Below are positions 30-4,834 of a stretch of 6,968 nt of DNA, piece after piece. This DNA is from Anaerolineae bacterium. GTDB taxonomy: Bacteria; Chloroflexota; Anaerolineae; Aggregatilineales; Phototrophicaceae. The position numbers and the translations under genes were made by a program. Location of the stretch: contig JADLHH010000165.1 of NCBI GenBank assembly GCA_020848855.1, positions 1-6,968 of the forward strand. The letters are read 5' to 3'. The notes below the pieces were generated by a model. That model made no database searches, was not told where the DNA came from, and saw only the letters and a program-made list of their open reading frames with translations. How positions within the stretch are numbered: position 1 is the stretch's first letter; each line of letters begins with the position of its first letter.

Positions 30-965
30 TTAAACTACAAGTTTGTCGTAGAGCAACTCCTGGCTCAAGCCGGGGAGCACCGTCTCGCGGCTTTGCAGGG
101 TCAGCGCCGCCGCCGTCATGCCGAGCCGCATCGCCTCATCGACCGGCACTTCGTTGAGGAGTCCGAAGATCACCGCTGCGCTGAACGCGTCGCCCGCGCC
201 GGTGGCGTCAACCACCTGCGTACGCATGGCACGGATGAAGCCGCCGCCGCTGCCGTCGGCATAGGCGACCCCCTGCTCGCCGAGCGTGACGACGGCGATC
301 TGCACACCCATCGACACCAGATGCCGCGCCGCCTCAATCGCCGTTTCGCGCGTGCGAGCGGGGTCGGGCAGCCCACAGAGCGCGGTCGTTTCGGCAGCAT
401 TGGGCGCGATCATGTACACGCTCGACAGATAGGGATTCAGCCGCACCGCCAGCGAGGGCATGGTCGGGTCGGCACACACGCGCGTATGATAGCGGTACGC
501 CAGCTCGAACAGCGTCTCCAGCGCCTCGGCGCTTAGCGTGGCGTCGATCACGATCAGGTCGGAGTCTTCGAACAGCGGCTCGTGCTTCCACAGGTAATTC
601 GGGTCGACGCTGCGCACGATGTCGAAGTCGCTGATCGTCACCAGCGGCTCGCCGTCGTCCTCTTTCATGATCGAGACCCGGCTGCTGGTATGCGCATCGC
701 GGAGCGCGCGAACATGCTCGCAGTCGACACCATGATCCCGGCAATGGCGGAGCACCTGCCTGCCGAACGAATCCCTGCCGACGGCGGTTAGCAGCCGAGT
801 TTCGACTTCCAGCCGCGCCAGATTTTCGGCGATATTGCGGGCAACGCCGCCGACGCTGGTACGCACTCTACCGAGATTGGTGGTATCCCACAGCACCGGC
901 TCCGGGGCGATTGCCTTAACGTCAATCCCCGCTGACCCAACGACGAGCACTCGTCCTTCAGGCAT
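30..965 (-). CDS. PfkB-family carbohydrate/nucleoside kinase, pseudouridine kinase-like
   Basis: A 311-residue ribokinase-fold kinase, expected to transfer the ATP gamma-phosphate to a sugar or nucleoside hydroxyl in the cytoplasm. Visible motifs: N-terminal GSAGIDV (10-16), PfkB signature 1 GGVARNIAENLARL (39-52), APNAAET (187-193), and signature 2 DATGAGDAF (253-261) with catalytic base D259 in the GAGD anion hole. The GSAxIDV and GGVxRNIAxNLAxL pattern, together with TSS at 93-95, resembles pseudouridine kinase (PsuK/YeiC) more than ribokinase or fructokinase, but the substrate is inferred. No pseudouridine glycosidase gene is adjacent. An ATG at 992 would add nine residues; the ATG at 965 is preferred because GGGAGG lies just upstream and the start overlaps the methyltransferase stop by eight bases (ATGCCTGA). 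It is last in a six-gene string. The remaining 29 bases to the window edge show no convincing terminator. Confidence 0.9.
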   Translation of the reverse strand: MPEGRVLVVGSAGIDVKAIAPEPVLWDTTNLGRVRTSVGGVARNIAENLARLEVETRLLTAVGRDSFGRQVLRHCRDHGVDCEHVRALRDAHTSSRVSIMKEDDGEPLVTISDFDIVRSVDPNYLWKHEPLFEDSDLIVIDATLSAEALETLFELAYRYHTRVCADPTMPSLAVRLNPYLSSVYMIAPNAAETTALCGLPDPARTRETAIEAARHLVSMGVQIAVVTLGEQGVAYADGSGGGFIRAMRTQVVDATGAGDAFSAAVIFGLLNEVPVDEAMRLGMTAAALTLQSRETVLPGLSQELLYDKLVV

Positions 966-2130
966 CGGTTCCCTCCCGCTCCAGCCAGGCAATGAGATCG
1001 TGATCGCGTCGAGTATAGACCTTCGCGCGCCCGCCGTCGAACGGCTGTCCTGACGGGATCAGCCGCAGGCGCAGGCGATCCTGGCGCGGCTTGCCGTCGC
1101 GCTCCCAGTGGGCACTCGTCTCCTGCACCGCCAGCAGGGCGTCGGCGCTGCCGAAGCTGCGCGCCGCTCCCTTCGCCCCCACCGGGACGAAACAGGCGCT
1201 CCCCGGCGTGATCAGAGCGAAGCCGCCGCTGGTGATCCCGTAAGGCGACGTGTCCCGGTCGACGTGGTAGCGCGCCAGCACGAAGCTGTCCGGCACGTTC
1301 AGCACGAAATACGGCAGGAAGCCACGCCAATATTCCCAGCTATCGAGCTGGACGCCGAGATAGGTTTCTTCGGCATCGTCCGAAAGCAGCATTTGCAGCG
1401 CAGCGCTGTCGATGTGCGCGCTGGAATAAACGTACAAGCCGCTGGTGGCGACGCGCACGGCGGTTTCGGGACCGGACGCCTGCCCGCGCAGCCGGATGAA
1501 CCAGCACAGGCGGTTATCCCGGCTGTAGAGCGTGCCGTCCGGCTGAAGCGTCAGTGCGGCGCTGACTTCGAAGCCGTCCATCCAGATGGGGGCGACCAGC
1601 ACGCCTTTTGGCTTCATCTGGCGCACCCACGCGCGCGGCACATCCCACACGCCCGCCGTCGCCATGATGCGGTCGTAGCTGGCACGCGGGGCATACCCCA
1701 CCGCGCCGTCGCTTTCAACCACCTGCACCTGACTCATGGCGGCGCGCTGCAAATTCGCCCGCGCCTGTTCCGCGACCTGCGCGTCGATTTCGATGGTCGT
1801 GACCTTGCCTTCGTCTCCAACCAGATACTGCATCAGCGCGGCGTTGTAGCCCGTTCCGGTGCCGATTTCGAGGACGTTTTGCCCCGGCTTCAGGTCAAGC
1901 TGCTGAAGCATGATCGCCATCATCGATGGCTGGCTGGAAGAACTTAAAACCGTGCCGTCTTCATCGACCTTGATCGGCACGGCTTCATCTTTGTAGACCT
2001 GATCCAGCGGTAGATTGGGCAGGAAGGCGGCGCGTGGCAGGGCGCGAAACGCGGCTTCGAGCGCGGTATCAAGCAGACCAGCCCGCCTGATAGAGTCGAT
2101 CAGCGTTTGCGCCGTCGCCGCTTCAGGCAT
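958..2130 (-). CDS. Protein-L-isoaspartate O-methyltransferase family protein with long C-terminal extension
   Basis: A 390-residue SAM-dependent methyltransferase of the PCMT/PIMT family, which methylates isoaspartyl residues in damaged proteins. The N-terminal half carries the family motifs: SSSSQPSMMAIML (63-75, the usual 'SQP' region), SAM-binding motif I VLEIGTGTGYNAALM (86-100), acidic post-motif I TTIEID (111-116), ESDG (139-142), YDRIMATAGV (152-161) and MKPKGVLVAPIW (172-183). Classical PIMT is about 210 residues. Here about 200 further residues follow (190-390) that I do not recognise; they are mixed alpha/beta in character and include an aromatic-rich stretch around 265-280 (SWEYWRGFLPYF). 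Extended PCMT-like enzymes are also known from peptide-modification systems, so a specific protein target is possible. An in-frame ATG at 2148 would add six residues. The ATG at 2130 is preferred because it overlaps the upstream stop as ATGCCTGA. No strong ribosome-binding site precedes either start, which suggests translational coupling. Confidence 0.9.
   Translation of the reverse strand: MPEAATAQTLIDSIRRAGLLDTALEAAFRALPRAAFLPNLPLDQVYKDEAVPIKVDEDGTVLSSSSQPSMMAIMLQQLDLKPGQNVLEIGTGTGYNAALMQYLVGDEGKVTTIEIDAQVAEQARANLQRAAMSQVQVVESDGAVGYAPRASYDRIMATAGVWDVPRAWVRQMKPKGVLVAPIWMDGFEVSAALTLQPDGTLYSRDNRLCWFIRLRGQASGPETAVRVATSGLYVYSSAHIDSAALQMLLSDDAEETYLGVQLDSWEYWRGFLPYFVLNVPDSFVLARYHVDRDTSPYGITSGGFALITPGSACFVPVGAKGAARSFGSADALLAVQETSAHWERDGKPRQDRLRLRLIPSGQPFDGGRAKVYTRRDHDLIAWLEREGTDA
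971..976 (-). promoter_or_regulatory. Shine-Dalgarno site of the PfkB kinase
   Basis: On the minus strand this reads GGGAGG, about five to six bases before the ATG at 965. It lies inside the end of the methyltransferase gene. It supports the internal ATG over the upstream in-frame ATG at 992. Confidence 0.7.
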
Positions 2131-2440
2131 ACCGGTTGTACTCGGCATACCACGCGCGCCGCTTGCGCAGCGAGACGCCGGCTTCGGCGTCGCTGCGGCG
2201 GGCGGTGCGCACGCGCCCGCGCGCGTCGATGTGGACCTGCCCGGCGCGCTGCAGCCGCGCGAATTCTTCCGGTGTGATCACCGGGGCGGGTTCGCCGCCG
2301 AGCCGTTCCAGACGCTCGCTGTACTCGTCGTGGACGGCGCCATTCCCGGCTTCAGGCTGGTCGTGCGGAACCTGCTCAGCGTCATTGACGGGTGTCTCGC
2401 CGCTCGGCTGATTTGGGAGTTGATTCTGCTCGTCGTTCAC
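2123..2440 (-). CDS. Small orphan protein coupled to the E1/E2/JAB genes
   Basis: A 105-residue protein that I do not recognise. It starts at GTG, and that codon overlaps the E1 stop as GTGA; its own stop overlaps the methyltransferase start as ATGCCTGA, so it is almost certainly translated with its neighbours. Residues 1-37 are rich in N, Q, P, D and E, probably disordered and acidic. Residues 38-66 look helical (DEYSERLERL, TPEEFARLQRAG). Residues 67-105 are strongly basic (GRVRTARR, SLRKRRAWYAEYNRYA) and end in an aromatic tail. There is no Cys, no membrane segment, no signal peptide and no C-terminal Gly-Gly. It could be an adaptor, a substrate, or a highly diverged partner of the conjugation machinery. 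It does not look like a beta-grasp ubiquitin-like protein. Confidence 0.8.
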   Translation of the reverse strand: MNDEQNQLPNQPSGETPVNDAEQVPHDQPEAGNGAVHDEYSERLERLGGEPAPVITPEEFARLQRAGQVHIDARGRVRTARRSDAEAGVSLRKRRAWYAEYNRYA

Positions 2441-3324
2441 GATTTCTTATCCTCGTTCTCTTCCAGGACAATCCCCGTCATCTGCATCAAATCGTCCAGC
2501 GAGGATTCCTGCTCCTGCGCGGGACCGCCGCAGACCAGACAATGCGGATTGCGTTCTACCGTTGCCCAGACCGCCGAATATGGCGGGCTGATCTCGCCGG
2601 AGATGATCTCCAGCGACGTGTTCGCCAGTATAACGGTGTTGCCGGGCATCGCGCGGTGGACTTCCGTCCCCTTCAGCAGTTCGTTGAGCGCCATATCCGC
2701 CTGCACCGAGGCGATGCGGACGACGTGCAGCCACAAACCCGGCTCGGCTTCGAGCGTTCCACCTTCCCCGATCATACCATAATCGAGTTCGGCGGCGTCA
2801 TCCGGTTTCGCCAGCTCATCGCGCAGTTCCGCCGCCCAGCAGGCGTAGCACGGGCCGTCGTATGGGTGAATGATCGCTATGTCGCCGCCTTCGCCGCGCT
2901 CGTAAACCCCGGCATAGACAGCGGTCAGGCGACGCTCCAGGCACGCCTGATTGATGACGTATTTCGAGTTTTCGCCATCGACGCCGACCACCAGCAGGTC
3001 GAGTCCGTCGAGCGCGTCGAGATGCTGCTCGATCCGCCCCACGCGGGTCGAGACTTCGGCGTTCGGGTTGCGCTGGCGGATCAAACCCGCGACTGCTTCC
3101 GGCTTTGGGCGACCGACTTCGCGCAGGTCGGCGACGTGGCGCACGACGTTCGCCATCTCCAGCGTATCGTCGTCGATCAGCACGAACCTGCCGACGCCAC
3201 TCATCGCCAGGCTGAGGGCGACGAAGCCCCCGCCCGACCCCAAGCCGACGATGCCGACGCGCTTGTGCGCCAGCAAATCAAGGTTGCGCGAGCCGATCAG
3301 CCGCTCGACGCGATCCCAGGTCAT
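2437..3324 (-). CDS. E1-like ThiF/MoeB-family adenylyltransferase
   Basis: A 295-residue Rossmann-type E1-like enzyme, predicted to adenylate the C-terminus of a ubiquitin-like modifier using ATP. Features: N-terminal helix with R13, nucleotide loop GLGSGGG (27-33), acidic end of strand 2 LIDDD (49-53), then N59 and R62 (the E1 'N..R' pair), GRPKPEA with K74, and GVDGENSK with D116. A CYAC pair (C159, C162) and a CLVC pair (C262, C265) form the zinc-binding knuckles seen in MoeB and ThiF. At the position where ThiF/E1 enzymes carry the thioester Cys, the sequence reads DYGMIGEGG (181-189) with no Cys; the only other Cys is C128. The C-terminus is an acidic tail after residue 272. It starts at ATG overlapping the JAB stop (ATGA), with GAGG seven bases upstream. 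Its position between the JAB gene and the orphan gene supports a role in ubiquitin-like conjugation rather than thiamine or molybdopterin synthesis. Confidence 0.92.
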   Translation of the reverse strand: MTWDRVERLIGSRNLDLLAHKRVGIVGLGSGGGFVALSLAMSGVGRFVLIDDDTLEMANVVRHVADLREVGRPKPEAVAGLIRQRNPNAEVSTRVGRIEQHLDALDGLDLLVVGVDGENSKYVINQACLERRLTAVYAGVYERGEGGDIAIIHPYDGPCYACWAAELRDELAKPDDAAELDYGMIGEGGTLEAEPGLWLHVVRIASVQADMALNELLKGTEVHRAMPGNTVILANTSLEIISGEISPPYSAVWATVERNPHCLVCGGPAQEQESSLDDLMQMTGIVLEENEDKKS

Positions 3325-4358
3325 GATACTTCCTCAGACGATTCGGTCGATTCAGGCTTGGTGACGCCCAGATGCGCTTCGACCGCGCGAACGTAATCGA
3401 TCAGGTGCATCTCCGGCGTCCAGTCCAGGTCGAGATGAACCGCCTGCGATTCGACCCAGGCGTTAGCGAATACCTTGTACATGTCGTCGTCCGGCTGCAT
3501 CTGCACAAACGGCGCGACCCGCGCTTTCGGCGGGCGCTGCGGGTAATCGTGCGACGTGACCAGGATCAGCAGTCTGTCTGACCCCATACGCGCCGTCAGA
3601 AAGCAGATTTCCAGCGGCGGTTGGTTGTCGCTGTCCCACAGCACCAGCGTGATGAACAAGCCGTCATCTTCGAGCAGGCGCGTCTCGTCGGCGAAGCGCT
3701 CGCCGTGAACCAGATGCCAGGGATATTCGACCAGCGCCGGCAACTGGTCATTCGGGTAAAGCGTCGGCGTGACCGGCATGAACATGCGCGACTTGTTGTC
3801 GATATACCAGAAATCGACGCGCAGCGCCGTGCCGTCGGGCTGCGGCGCCATCAGAAAGTTGGTCAGGGCGTTGGACACGCCGATGGTATGCGGATGCCCC
3901 AGCGTGACAATCGGCGCGAGCAGAAAATCCATGTGATTGCTGGGGTCGTCCAGCCAGTCGAGCGCGGTCAGCAGGTCGCCGCCGCTGGGCTGGATCATGA
4001 AGCCGGGCTGCTTGTGCCAGTCGCCCAGGTAACGCAGCGGCACGTCCCATTTCTTCTGCGCGTGCAACTGGCGGTGCTGCTGCCAGTTCTCCTGCAGCCA
4101 CCAGATTAATTCGTCCTGCCGGTCGTCGCCCTGCTGGAAGGTGTGGAACTGCCGTACTGCCGTCTCGTCGGGCGAGATAGTGTCCAGCACGTAGAGCGTC
4201 GGCACGCCGTTGGTATGCGTGCCCGGCACCACCAGCCCGACCATCGCCTCGCCGGTTTCGTCTTCGATGCTGTAGCGCGCCGCCGCCGTCATTTTGTCGA
4301 TCACGCGGCGTGACACGACCAGATTCGGGACGCTGCGCCCCTGCCAACGATTGAACAT
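3321..4358 (-). CDS. JAB/JAMM (Mov34/MPN) metalloprotease-like protein with probable inactive E2-like C-terminal domain
   Basis: A 345-residue protein with two apparent parts. The N-terminal part (about 1-190) is a JAB/MPN domain: E37 in GEAMVG supplies the conserved Glu, and GDWHKQPGFMIQPSGGD (112-128) matches the JAMM pattern H-x-H-P-x6-S-x2-D in spacing, with H115, P118, S125 and D128. The second metal-binding His is Gln (Q117, codon CAG). JAB proteases remove ubiquitin-like modifiers or process their precursors. The C-terminal part (about 205-330) has hydrophobic strands (LFITLVLWD, LEICFLTAR, RLLILVTS), then HDYPQRPPKARV (270-281) and DLDWTPEMHLIDYV (310-323). This is the order of the E2 fold (strands, YPxxPP, W-P, helix) but without a catalytic Cys after the proline motif, so it resembles a UEV/RWD-like domain. 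That second call is inference from pattern. The start lies five bases after the E2 gene, with GGAG at its stop. Confidence 0.85.
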   Translation of the reverse strand: MFNRWQGRSVPNLVVSRRVIDKMTAAARYSIEDETGEAMVGLVVPGTHTNGVPTLYVLDTISPDETAVRQFHTFQQGDDRQDELIWWLQENWQQHRQLHAQKKWDVPLRYLGDWHKQPGFMIQPSGGDLLTALDWLDDPSNHMDFLLAPIVTLGHPHTIGVSNALTNFLMAPQPDGTALRVDFWYIDNKSRMFMPVTPTLYPNDQLPALVEYPWHLVHGERFADETRLLEDDGLFITLVLWDSDNQPPLEICFLTARMGSDRLLILVTSHDYPQRPPKARVAPFVQMQPDDDMYKVFANAWVESQAVHLDLDWTPEMHLIDYVRAVEAHLGVTKPESTESSEEVS

Positions 4359-4363
4359 CTCGG

Positions 4364-4834
4364 TTATCTCCAGCGCCGGGGCGGGAGCGGGGTATTCGGG
4401 TCGACTCGTTCCTCAATCCCGGGCCATTCTCCGGTCGAGCGCCAGGTATAGTAGGCATACAGCCACTGAATCGCCCAGCCCGCGACCGTCACCGCCGTCG
4501 AGCGGCCGGGGTTCCAGCCGTAGCGCTCGCCGTCCTTCGGGTTGAACAGGCACAACTGCCCGTCCTCGTACTGGTGCTTCTGGCTGTAAATGCGCGGCTT
4601 GAGCACGTAGGCTTCGGCGGGGCGGTTCGGGTAGTCGTTCGGATACACGATCTTGAGCGTGTGCTCCGGCGCGCGCAGCGTCGCCAGGTTCAACTCGACC
4701 GTCCCTTCCCAGTGCAGCAAATCGAACTGCGGCACGACCAGCCTGAAGGTGTTATCAAATGCCGCCCGCATCGCCTCGACTTCCAACCGCAAACGCGGAG
4801 AGACATTGCTCCGCGTTCCCCACCATGCAGCCAT
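4364..4834 (-). CDS. Bacterial E2-like ubiquitin-conjugating enzyme
   Basis: A 156-residue protein with the E2 (UBC) fold pattern, predicted to accept a ubiquitin-like modifier from the E1 as a thioester. Order of motifs: strand region HWEGTVELNL (41-50), LKIVYPNDYPNRPAEAYV (60-77, the E2 YPxxYPxxPP-type stretch), KHQYEDGQLCL (86-96) with candidate catalytic C95, WNP (107-109), a helix VAGWAIQWLYAYYTW (117-131), and a terminal TGEWPG (134-139). The eukaryotic HPN tripeptide is replaced by HQY (87-89), as is common in bacterial E2 families of the type found in Cap2 and in Bil/Bub operons. C95 is the only Cys in the protein. A TTG at 4846 is possible in frame, but the ATG at 4834 is chosen because GAGGAG lies four bases before it. 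It is the first gene of the minus-strand string. Confidence 0.88.
   Translation of the reverse strand: MAAWWGTRSNVSPRLRLEVEAMRAAFDNTFRLVVPQFDLLHWEGTVELNLATLRAPEHTLKIVYPNDYPNRPAEAYVLKPRIYSQKHQYEDGQLCLFNPKDGERYGWNPGRSTAVTVAGWAIQWLYAYYTWRSTGEWPGIEERVDPNTPLPPRRWR

Follow-up and report, generated by a model that had tools for sequence, protein, structure and literature searches.

A 6,968-nucleotide stretch of contig JADLHH010000165.1 from an Anaerolineae bacterium (assembly GCA_020848855.1; Chloroflexota), referred to below as the window, carries E2, JAB and E1 genes in tandem (the triad), followed by the gene of a 105-residue small protein that we call the orphan. We propose that these four genes represent a conserved chromosomal protein-conjugation system of Chloroflexota in which the modifier would most likely be the orphan itself, and give this reading a probability of about 0.4. 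An earlier note on the same DNA had described the E2-JAB-E1 tandem with its 5-base gap and ATGA overlap, and its positions and junctions were reproduced exactly. That observation is right; what makes the system more interesting than the earlier note supposed is not the separation of E1 and E2 but the bond of a resident cascade to a small protein unlike ubiquitin.

A profile search of genome contigs with the E2 confirmed 120 places, the best 80 of which were used for locus counts; recurrence was counted by tblastn within the available stretches, and genes were called by length and composition with a simple tool, which in some loci picked the wrong strand. With the E2 present at all 80 loci, JAB and E1 genes were found downstream of it at 79/80 and 77/80, and the 105-residue protein was recovered at 33, a PIMT-family methyltransferase at 31/80 and a PfkB-family kinase at 16/80. 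Three loci lacked E1: the stretches of L008 and L017 break off at the JAB start or shortly past it, and L026 has the E2 alone, with JAB, E1, orphan and PIMT located elsewhere in the same genome (G015, L097). All loci are from Chloroflexota by title except L024, which is labelled Bacteroidetes; its E1 and the L010 E1 form a pair in the tree described below (support 100/99). The earlier note had asked whether the order E2-JAB-E1-orphan-PIMT recurs in other genomes; the E2-JAB-E1 part does, and PIMT is present at fewer than half of the loci. PIMT and PfkB, put forward there as the companions of the set, are thus secondary.

Whole-genome profile searching found the orphan in 34/35 genomes chosen by their E2, even where it does not adjoin E1. 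In a class sample of 298 genomes, the orphan was found in 20, and E2 with E <= 2.8e-55 in the same 20 (at most 16 first-look candidates for the orphan and 12 for E2 were scored per genome); 7 of these 20 overlap with the 35. Five further genomes gave weak E2 matches (7.7e-8 to 9.1e-14) and no orphan. The orphan lies less than 3 kb from E2 in 13/20 positive genomes and is probably linked to it in G161, since two contigs end inside JAB; the distance is about 12-13 kb in G029, G030 and G224, and in G023, G234 and G301 the orphan is far from E2 or on another contig. In G211, the most divergent by E2 score, E2, JAB, E1, orphan and a NUDIX gene stand in a row with no neighbouring PIMT. The orphan, and not PIMT or PfkB, is therefore the core fourth part. 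A single E2 match per genome was seen in 25/25 class genomes with a match, no relative was found in viral contigs and phages, and plasmids gave two weak relatives (33-34% identity). The set looks like a resident chromosomal system.

The orphan consists of a variable arm rich in Pro, Glu and Asp, a conserved core of about 50 residues ending in KRRAWY, and a short tail. The core consensus is LGGEPAPxITPEEFARLQxAGQVHIDxRGRVRxxRRxxxxxGVSLRKRRAWY, and its mean amino-acid identity of 88% against 46% at third codon positions (31 sequences) indicates that it is selected as a protein. Among the 120 best-scoring of 1623 relatives, the arm varies from 35 to 76 residues and the tail after AWY from 0 to 11, with 3/120 ending at AWY and 108/120 adding 1-3 residues. 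An unusually long tail of 22 residues was seen in one orphan (L139:9664-10014). The predicted structure runs from a helix through a short hairpin to a C-terminal helix, with pLDDT (predicted local distance difference test) of 84-88 for residues 51-80 and low confidence for the whole model (68; predicted template modelling score, pTM, 0.30). No solved structure in the PDB matched the orphan at E <= 0.001. The low-confidence model without a beta-grasp fold and the lack of a structure match together mean that the orphan is not recognisable as a beta-grasp protein, nor is it predicted to be one.

The window E2 scored 9.9e-17 against the best PADLOC E2 model, and UBE2L3 chains matched the E2 profile with E-values of 1e-4 to 8e-3 among the sequences of solved structures. 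In the alignment to chain L3A2-1 (5.6e-5), C95 falls opposite the cysteine of GQVCLP, which we take to be the active site of E2 L3. C95 is invariant in 24/24 aligned sequences (23 relatives being 76-97% identical to the window E2), the motif around it is kept in 59/59 E2 sequences extractable from the 80 loci, and the relatives carry the precomputed domain PF26395. Judged by sequence, the protein is an E2 with both the UBC relationship and the catalytic cysteine of an active enzyme.

The E1 has one ThiF domain (1.3e-30), and its nearest solved structures are ThiF, UBA5, MoeB, TcdA and MccB, with PaaA also among them. Its glycine-rich and zinc residues are retained, and the two zinc CxxC pairs are the sole invariant cysteines in 74/74 E1 sequences extractable under the same filter; C128 is Cys in 65/74. 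Across residues 163-205, the region of the MoeB/ThiF cysteine, no position is conserved as Ser, Thr or Cys at a level of >=95% of the 74 sequences, and position T190 is Thr in 68/74 and L191 is Leu or Ile in 74/74. By eye, a Cys follows an RH pair in the divergent relative L128 and in the E1s of a second family described below; the window has Ala there. Separate MoeB-type paralogues with the motif C-[AQ]-E-[GA]-G-V were found in the triad genomes G006, G029, G211 and G301, and also in G093. A tree was built from 14 triad E1s (13 hand-chosen loci and the window), 7 second-family E1s and 6 paralogues, the last drawn from 15 ThiF matches of which five were the operons' own E1s, L167 and L173 gave no hit, and the fragments L175 and L176 were excluded. 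Support of 100/99 separates the paralogues from the E1s of the triad and of the second family; 5/6 paralogues keep the motif, and the sixth, L172, has no CxxC and a long branch. The operon E1 thus shares the adenylation fold and CxxC pairs with MoeB, ThiF and UBA5 but differs in having no catalytic Cys and in standing apart from the MoeB-type paralogues; the grouping with cofactor-synthesis genes that the earlier note had named as counter-evidence did not appear. Since Bub systems may work through non-cysteine intermediates, the missing Cys of the E1 is possibly no novelty on its own.

In the JAB protein, the second zinc His of the JAMM motif is Gln (HxQ) in 77/78 sequences, the window included, and HxH is retained in three divergent relatives (L080, L128 and L130). 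The window JAB therefore departs from the residue set of an active JAMM peptidase (Glu, HxH, Ser, Asp), and this substitution in its clade distinguishes it from JAMM/MPN+ peptidases such as Rpn11, BRCC36 and the Caldiarchaeum Rpn11 homologue. Removal of a modifier by the window JAB is doubtful because of the HxQ. The C-terminal half (about residues 210-332) is probably an E2-like (RWD/UEV) domain without Cys, as suggested by the topology of the predicted model, weak UEV matches in Foldseek (E 0.08-0.25) and a weak match to the E2 profile (score 22.0, equalled by 1/200 shuffles, over only 24 columns). The JAB profile had no match among solved-structure sequences, and the VIA-align rows of the JAB model cover mainly residues 6-207, outside the E2-like half.

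A second E1/E2/JAB family of Chloroflexota, with an HxHP motif, was found in G093 (L145, a weak E2 match) and G381 (L159), and when the E2 of this family was sought in 158 genomes from the class to which G381 belongs, 10 places turned up in 7 of them. Of the five genomes in the search that had led to G381, two (L160, L161) showed by eye no set of E1 and E2. The loci of the family are L145, L158-L159 and L187-L195, and one genome (G689) has three E2 places. A small protein laid out like the orphan is encoded directly upstream of E2 at all 10 places, although at one of them, L181 (seen in L193), it appears as no more than a frame of 47 residues without the start of the motif. These proteins read approximately SLEELKxxIxxAxxVxVDxxGRLxxP, followed by a very variable linker and [KR]P[QST]RWF; 7/10 end at the Phe and 3 have 3-8 extra residues, and the L145 protein is a looser version ending in VKPQVWALGA. 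A layout pattern gave 0 background matches in 966,873 bases (57/80 loci, KRRAWY frames excluded), the pattern having been written from the examples and thus being descriptive only. It missed 4/10 second-family loci, for which reading of open reading frames supplied L183, L185 and L186, and a motif scan supplied L193 for L181. Against the orphan core, the 10-member profile, which contains the near-copies L180/L184 and L185/L186, scored 23.4, whereas 1000 column shuffles averaged 9.1 and never exceeded 18.5; on this comparison the two small-protein families are likely to share a common ancestor. The seven second-family E1s in the tree likewise have no Cys at the MoeB site, and by eye an E2-like half follows the JAB in L159 and L145.

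From these features we infer both the reaction steps and the modifier role of the small protein. The E1 would activate the small protein by adenylating its C-terminus, perhaps once the tail has been cut back to the conserved aromatic end, AWY in the window family and WF in the second. As the E1 has no catalytic Cys, the acyl group would go directly from the adenylate to C95 of the E2, and then to the target. The JAB-UEV protein would bind and position the conjugates and, depending on the clade, may also cleave them where the metal site is intact. In its most specific form, this is an E1-E2 cascade conjugating a non-beta-grasp tag through an aromatic W-Y/F end, in which a Cys-less E1 hands its acyl-adenylate to the E2, resident in its hosts and found also in a second Chloroflexota family; we hold this fuller version only tentatively. 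To our knowledge, all known E1/E2 modifiers have the beta-grasp fold. A conserved end with a short variable tail resembles the precursors of ubiquitin-like proteins (Ubls). Pup, like the orphan as a candidate, is a small, largely disordered modifier without the ubiquitin fold; it is ligated by PafA rather than by E1 and E2, and ends in Gly-Gly-Glu/Gln.

Several observations weigh against a role of the small protein as modifier. The raw C-terminus of the orphan is not conserved, the residues past AWY being variable, so that trimming would be needed, and the JAB that might trim it has lost a zinc ligand in the orphan clade. In the second family the JAMM motif is apparently intact, yet most members need no trimming; that the clade with most tails has the altered JAMM argues against simple trimming by JAB. 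The 20 positive genomes may all belong to a single lineage, in which case their co-occurrence does not represent 20 independent events, and a miss is possible with only the best 16 or 12 candidates scored per genome. The link between the two small-protein families comes mainly from the helix-hairpin part (29 columns); the L145 protein alone failed against the orphan profile (0.3 bits, with 248/2000 shuffles as good), and full-length hhalign of the two families gave P 0.003 and a probability of only 4%. Finally, no positive genome among the 20 is without a ThiS-family gene (G001 and G117 have exactly one), so the tag might be a shared MoaD/ThiS protein supplied from elsewhere in the genome.

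In this alternative, an ordinary beta-grasp Ubl of the MoaD/ThiS type would be conjugated, as archaeal SAMPs (small archaeal modifier proteins) are, and the orphan would be an adaptor, activator or preferred substrate. MoeB-like E1s adenylate MoaD-like proteins, which agrees with it, as does the ThiS-family match in every positive genome. Against this, ThiS-family genes occur in 291/298 class genomes regardless of the system, G001 and G117 have a single match each, and the four triad genomes checked each have a separate, Cys-bearing MoeB-type E1. YukD fell under the cut-off in 20/20 positive genomes (weak matches in 4), the Ubl searches covering ThiS and YukD only. With ThiS near-universal and YukD under the cut-off, neither tracks the system. 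We regard this explanation as unlikely. The earlier view that the set conjugates and removes a ubiquitin-like modifier was not supported in that form, as no beta-grasp modifier was recognised among the window proteins, removal by JAB is doubtful and the E1 offers no Cys at the usual position for the customary E1 thioester.

The orphan could instead be the substrate, with a MccB-like E1 activating its C-terminus and E2 and PIMT finishing the peptide to give a regulatory product or one resembling the RiPPs (ribosomally synthesised and post-translationally modified peptides). The presence of MccB and PaaA among the nearest solved E1 structures and the nearness of PIMT to the FxLD-system methyltransferase fit such a pathway. 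RiPP precursors usually conserve the leader and vary the core; the orphan shows the reverse, with a variable N-terminal arm and a nearly unchanging C-terminal core, and several divergent members have no PIMT adjoining the system, which makes this explanation improbable. Similarly improbable is a degenerate, binding-only regulatory complex without protein tagging: the His-to-Gln change in nearly all JABs, the want of a catalytic Cys in 74 E1s and the Cys-less E2-like half of JAB would suit it, but the E2 Cys and its motif are invariant, the E1 glycine-rich and zinc residues are kept, and the three divergent relatives have HxH.

The best-studied bacterial E1-E2-JAB operons are antiviral. An antiviral system of the CBASS, Bil or Bub type is very improbable here, for although PADLOC defence models recognise both the E2 and the E1 and a short CBASS operon (CD-NTase and E2) exists in another class genome (L143; L146 and L147 alike by eye), no CD-NTase, effector or beta-grasp Ubl was recognised among the window proteins, E2 is single in all 25 class genomes with a match, relatives were not found in phages or viral contigs and only as two weak plasmid matches, and the recurrent flanking genes are metabolic or iron-transport-like.

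Comparison with known systems showed likenesses and differences. A likeness to CBASS type II (Cap2/Cap3) and type II-short is that the PADLOC E2 models matched by the window E2, PDLC00876 for example, also match the stand-alone E2 of a CD-NTase operon. CBASS type II differs in that no CD-NTase or effector is found in the window, an absence that the earlier note had rightly pointed out, and that the window E1 is not fused to E2. Stand-alone E2s adjoining a CD-NTase, as in CBASS type II-short, were seen at L143 (by PADLOC) and at L146 and L147 (by eye). Bil operons resemble the present set in having separate E2, JAB and E1 genes in one operon with a fourth gene. The earlier statement that separate E1 and E2 proteins set this locus apart from the familiar types was not supported, as Bil likewise has a separate E2 (BilB) and E1 (BilD), together with the beta-grasp protein BilA (PMC11354881, excerpt). 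The same excerpt describes BilA as a Ubl with two beta-grasp domains and BilD as built of two adenylation halves, and the E1 pattern of Bil is one inactive plus one active half. The fourth protein of the present set lacks a predicted beta-grasp fold, and its E1, of 295 residues, has one ThiF domain and no catalytic Cys. Bacterial E1/E2/JAB operons were described by Iyer et al. 2006 (PMC1779556, excerpt), whose types 6a-6e share with the present set an E1 without rhodanese, a JAB adjoining E1 and an E2-like protein. They differ in that no Ub-like gene was recognised here and that the JAB is joined to the probable E2-like half, not to E1; in place of the alpha-helical, fast-diverging protein found in type 6d, our set has a highly conserved small protein with a WY end. 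Bub operons are presented as putative immune pathways in which phage protection was not demonstrated (PMC13373217, excerpt), and Bil and Bub are counted as UBL cascades in a review (PMC12687455, excerpt). No description of the Chloroflexota set or of the orphan was found in the open-access literature, the primary Bil/Bub papers and Burroughs et al. 2011 lying outside that search.

The features of the window are listed in Table 1. All six minus-strand genes, from E2 through PfkB, are tightly packed, and the plus strand beyond them encodes a protein that resembles PNPOx but falls short of the Pfam cut-off, a GNAT acetyltransferase and a YwiC-like protein.

Table 1. Minus-strand genes of the window, from the E2 gene onwards
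Feature	Position	Strand	Remarks
E2 (UBC-like) enzyme, 156 aa	4364..4834	minus	candidate catalytic C95 in HQYEDGQLCLF
JAB/MPN-fold protein, 345 aa	3321..4358	minus	JAMM motif E34/E37..H115-K-Q117..S125..D128
E1-like adenylating enzyme (ThiF fold), 295 aa	2437..3324	minus	zinc CxxC pairs 159/162, 262/265
Small protein (orphan), 105 aa, candidate modifier	2123..2440	minus	4-base overlap with E1 stop
PIMT-family methyltransferase with extra C-terminal half; accessory	958..2148	minus	best NCBIfam: FxLD-system methyltransferase
PfkB-family kinase, occasional neighbour	30..992	minus	present in 16/80 loci

The PIMT scored 268 bits against the FxLD-system methyltransferase, below the cut-off of 320. 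A start of its gene at 2130 would produce an 8-base overlap with the orphan gene, as in many relatives; the PIMT start overlaps the end of the orphan gene by 4-14 bases in 21/30 relatives with both readable. Divergent members without a PIMT beside the system suggest that this gene was a later addition, and the PIMT may act on the orphan or on damaged targets. An apparent iron-type ABC transporter (binding protein, permease and ATPase, by eye) often stands divergently beside the E2 gene (L041-L073 and others). Its binding-protein family f3 is present in 42/80 loci within the available stretches, and a like set is found in the most divergent member (L128:11068-14803). In that member a NUDIX hydrolase (by eye) follows the orphan (L128:7197-7856), and the NUDIX-like family f21 is near the set in 16/80 loci; f3 and f21 were counted otherwise than by tblastn.

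If the proposed conjugation system is real, ubiquitin-style chemistry would act on a different tag and would have been fixed as a resident function of a bacterial lineage. A resident E1-E2 system that tracks a non-ubiquitin small protein would bear on the role of such a cascade outside defence, and would put to the test whether the ubiquitin fold is required for E1/E2 chemistry.

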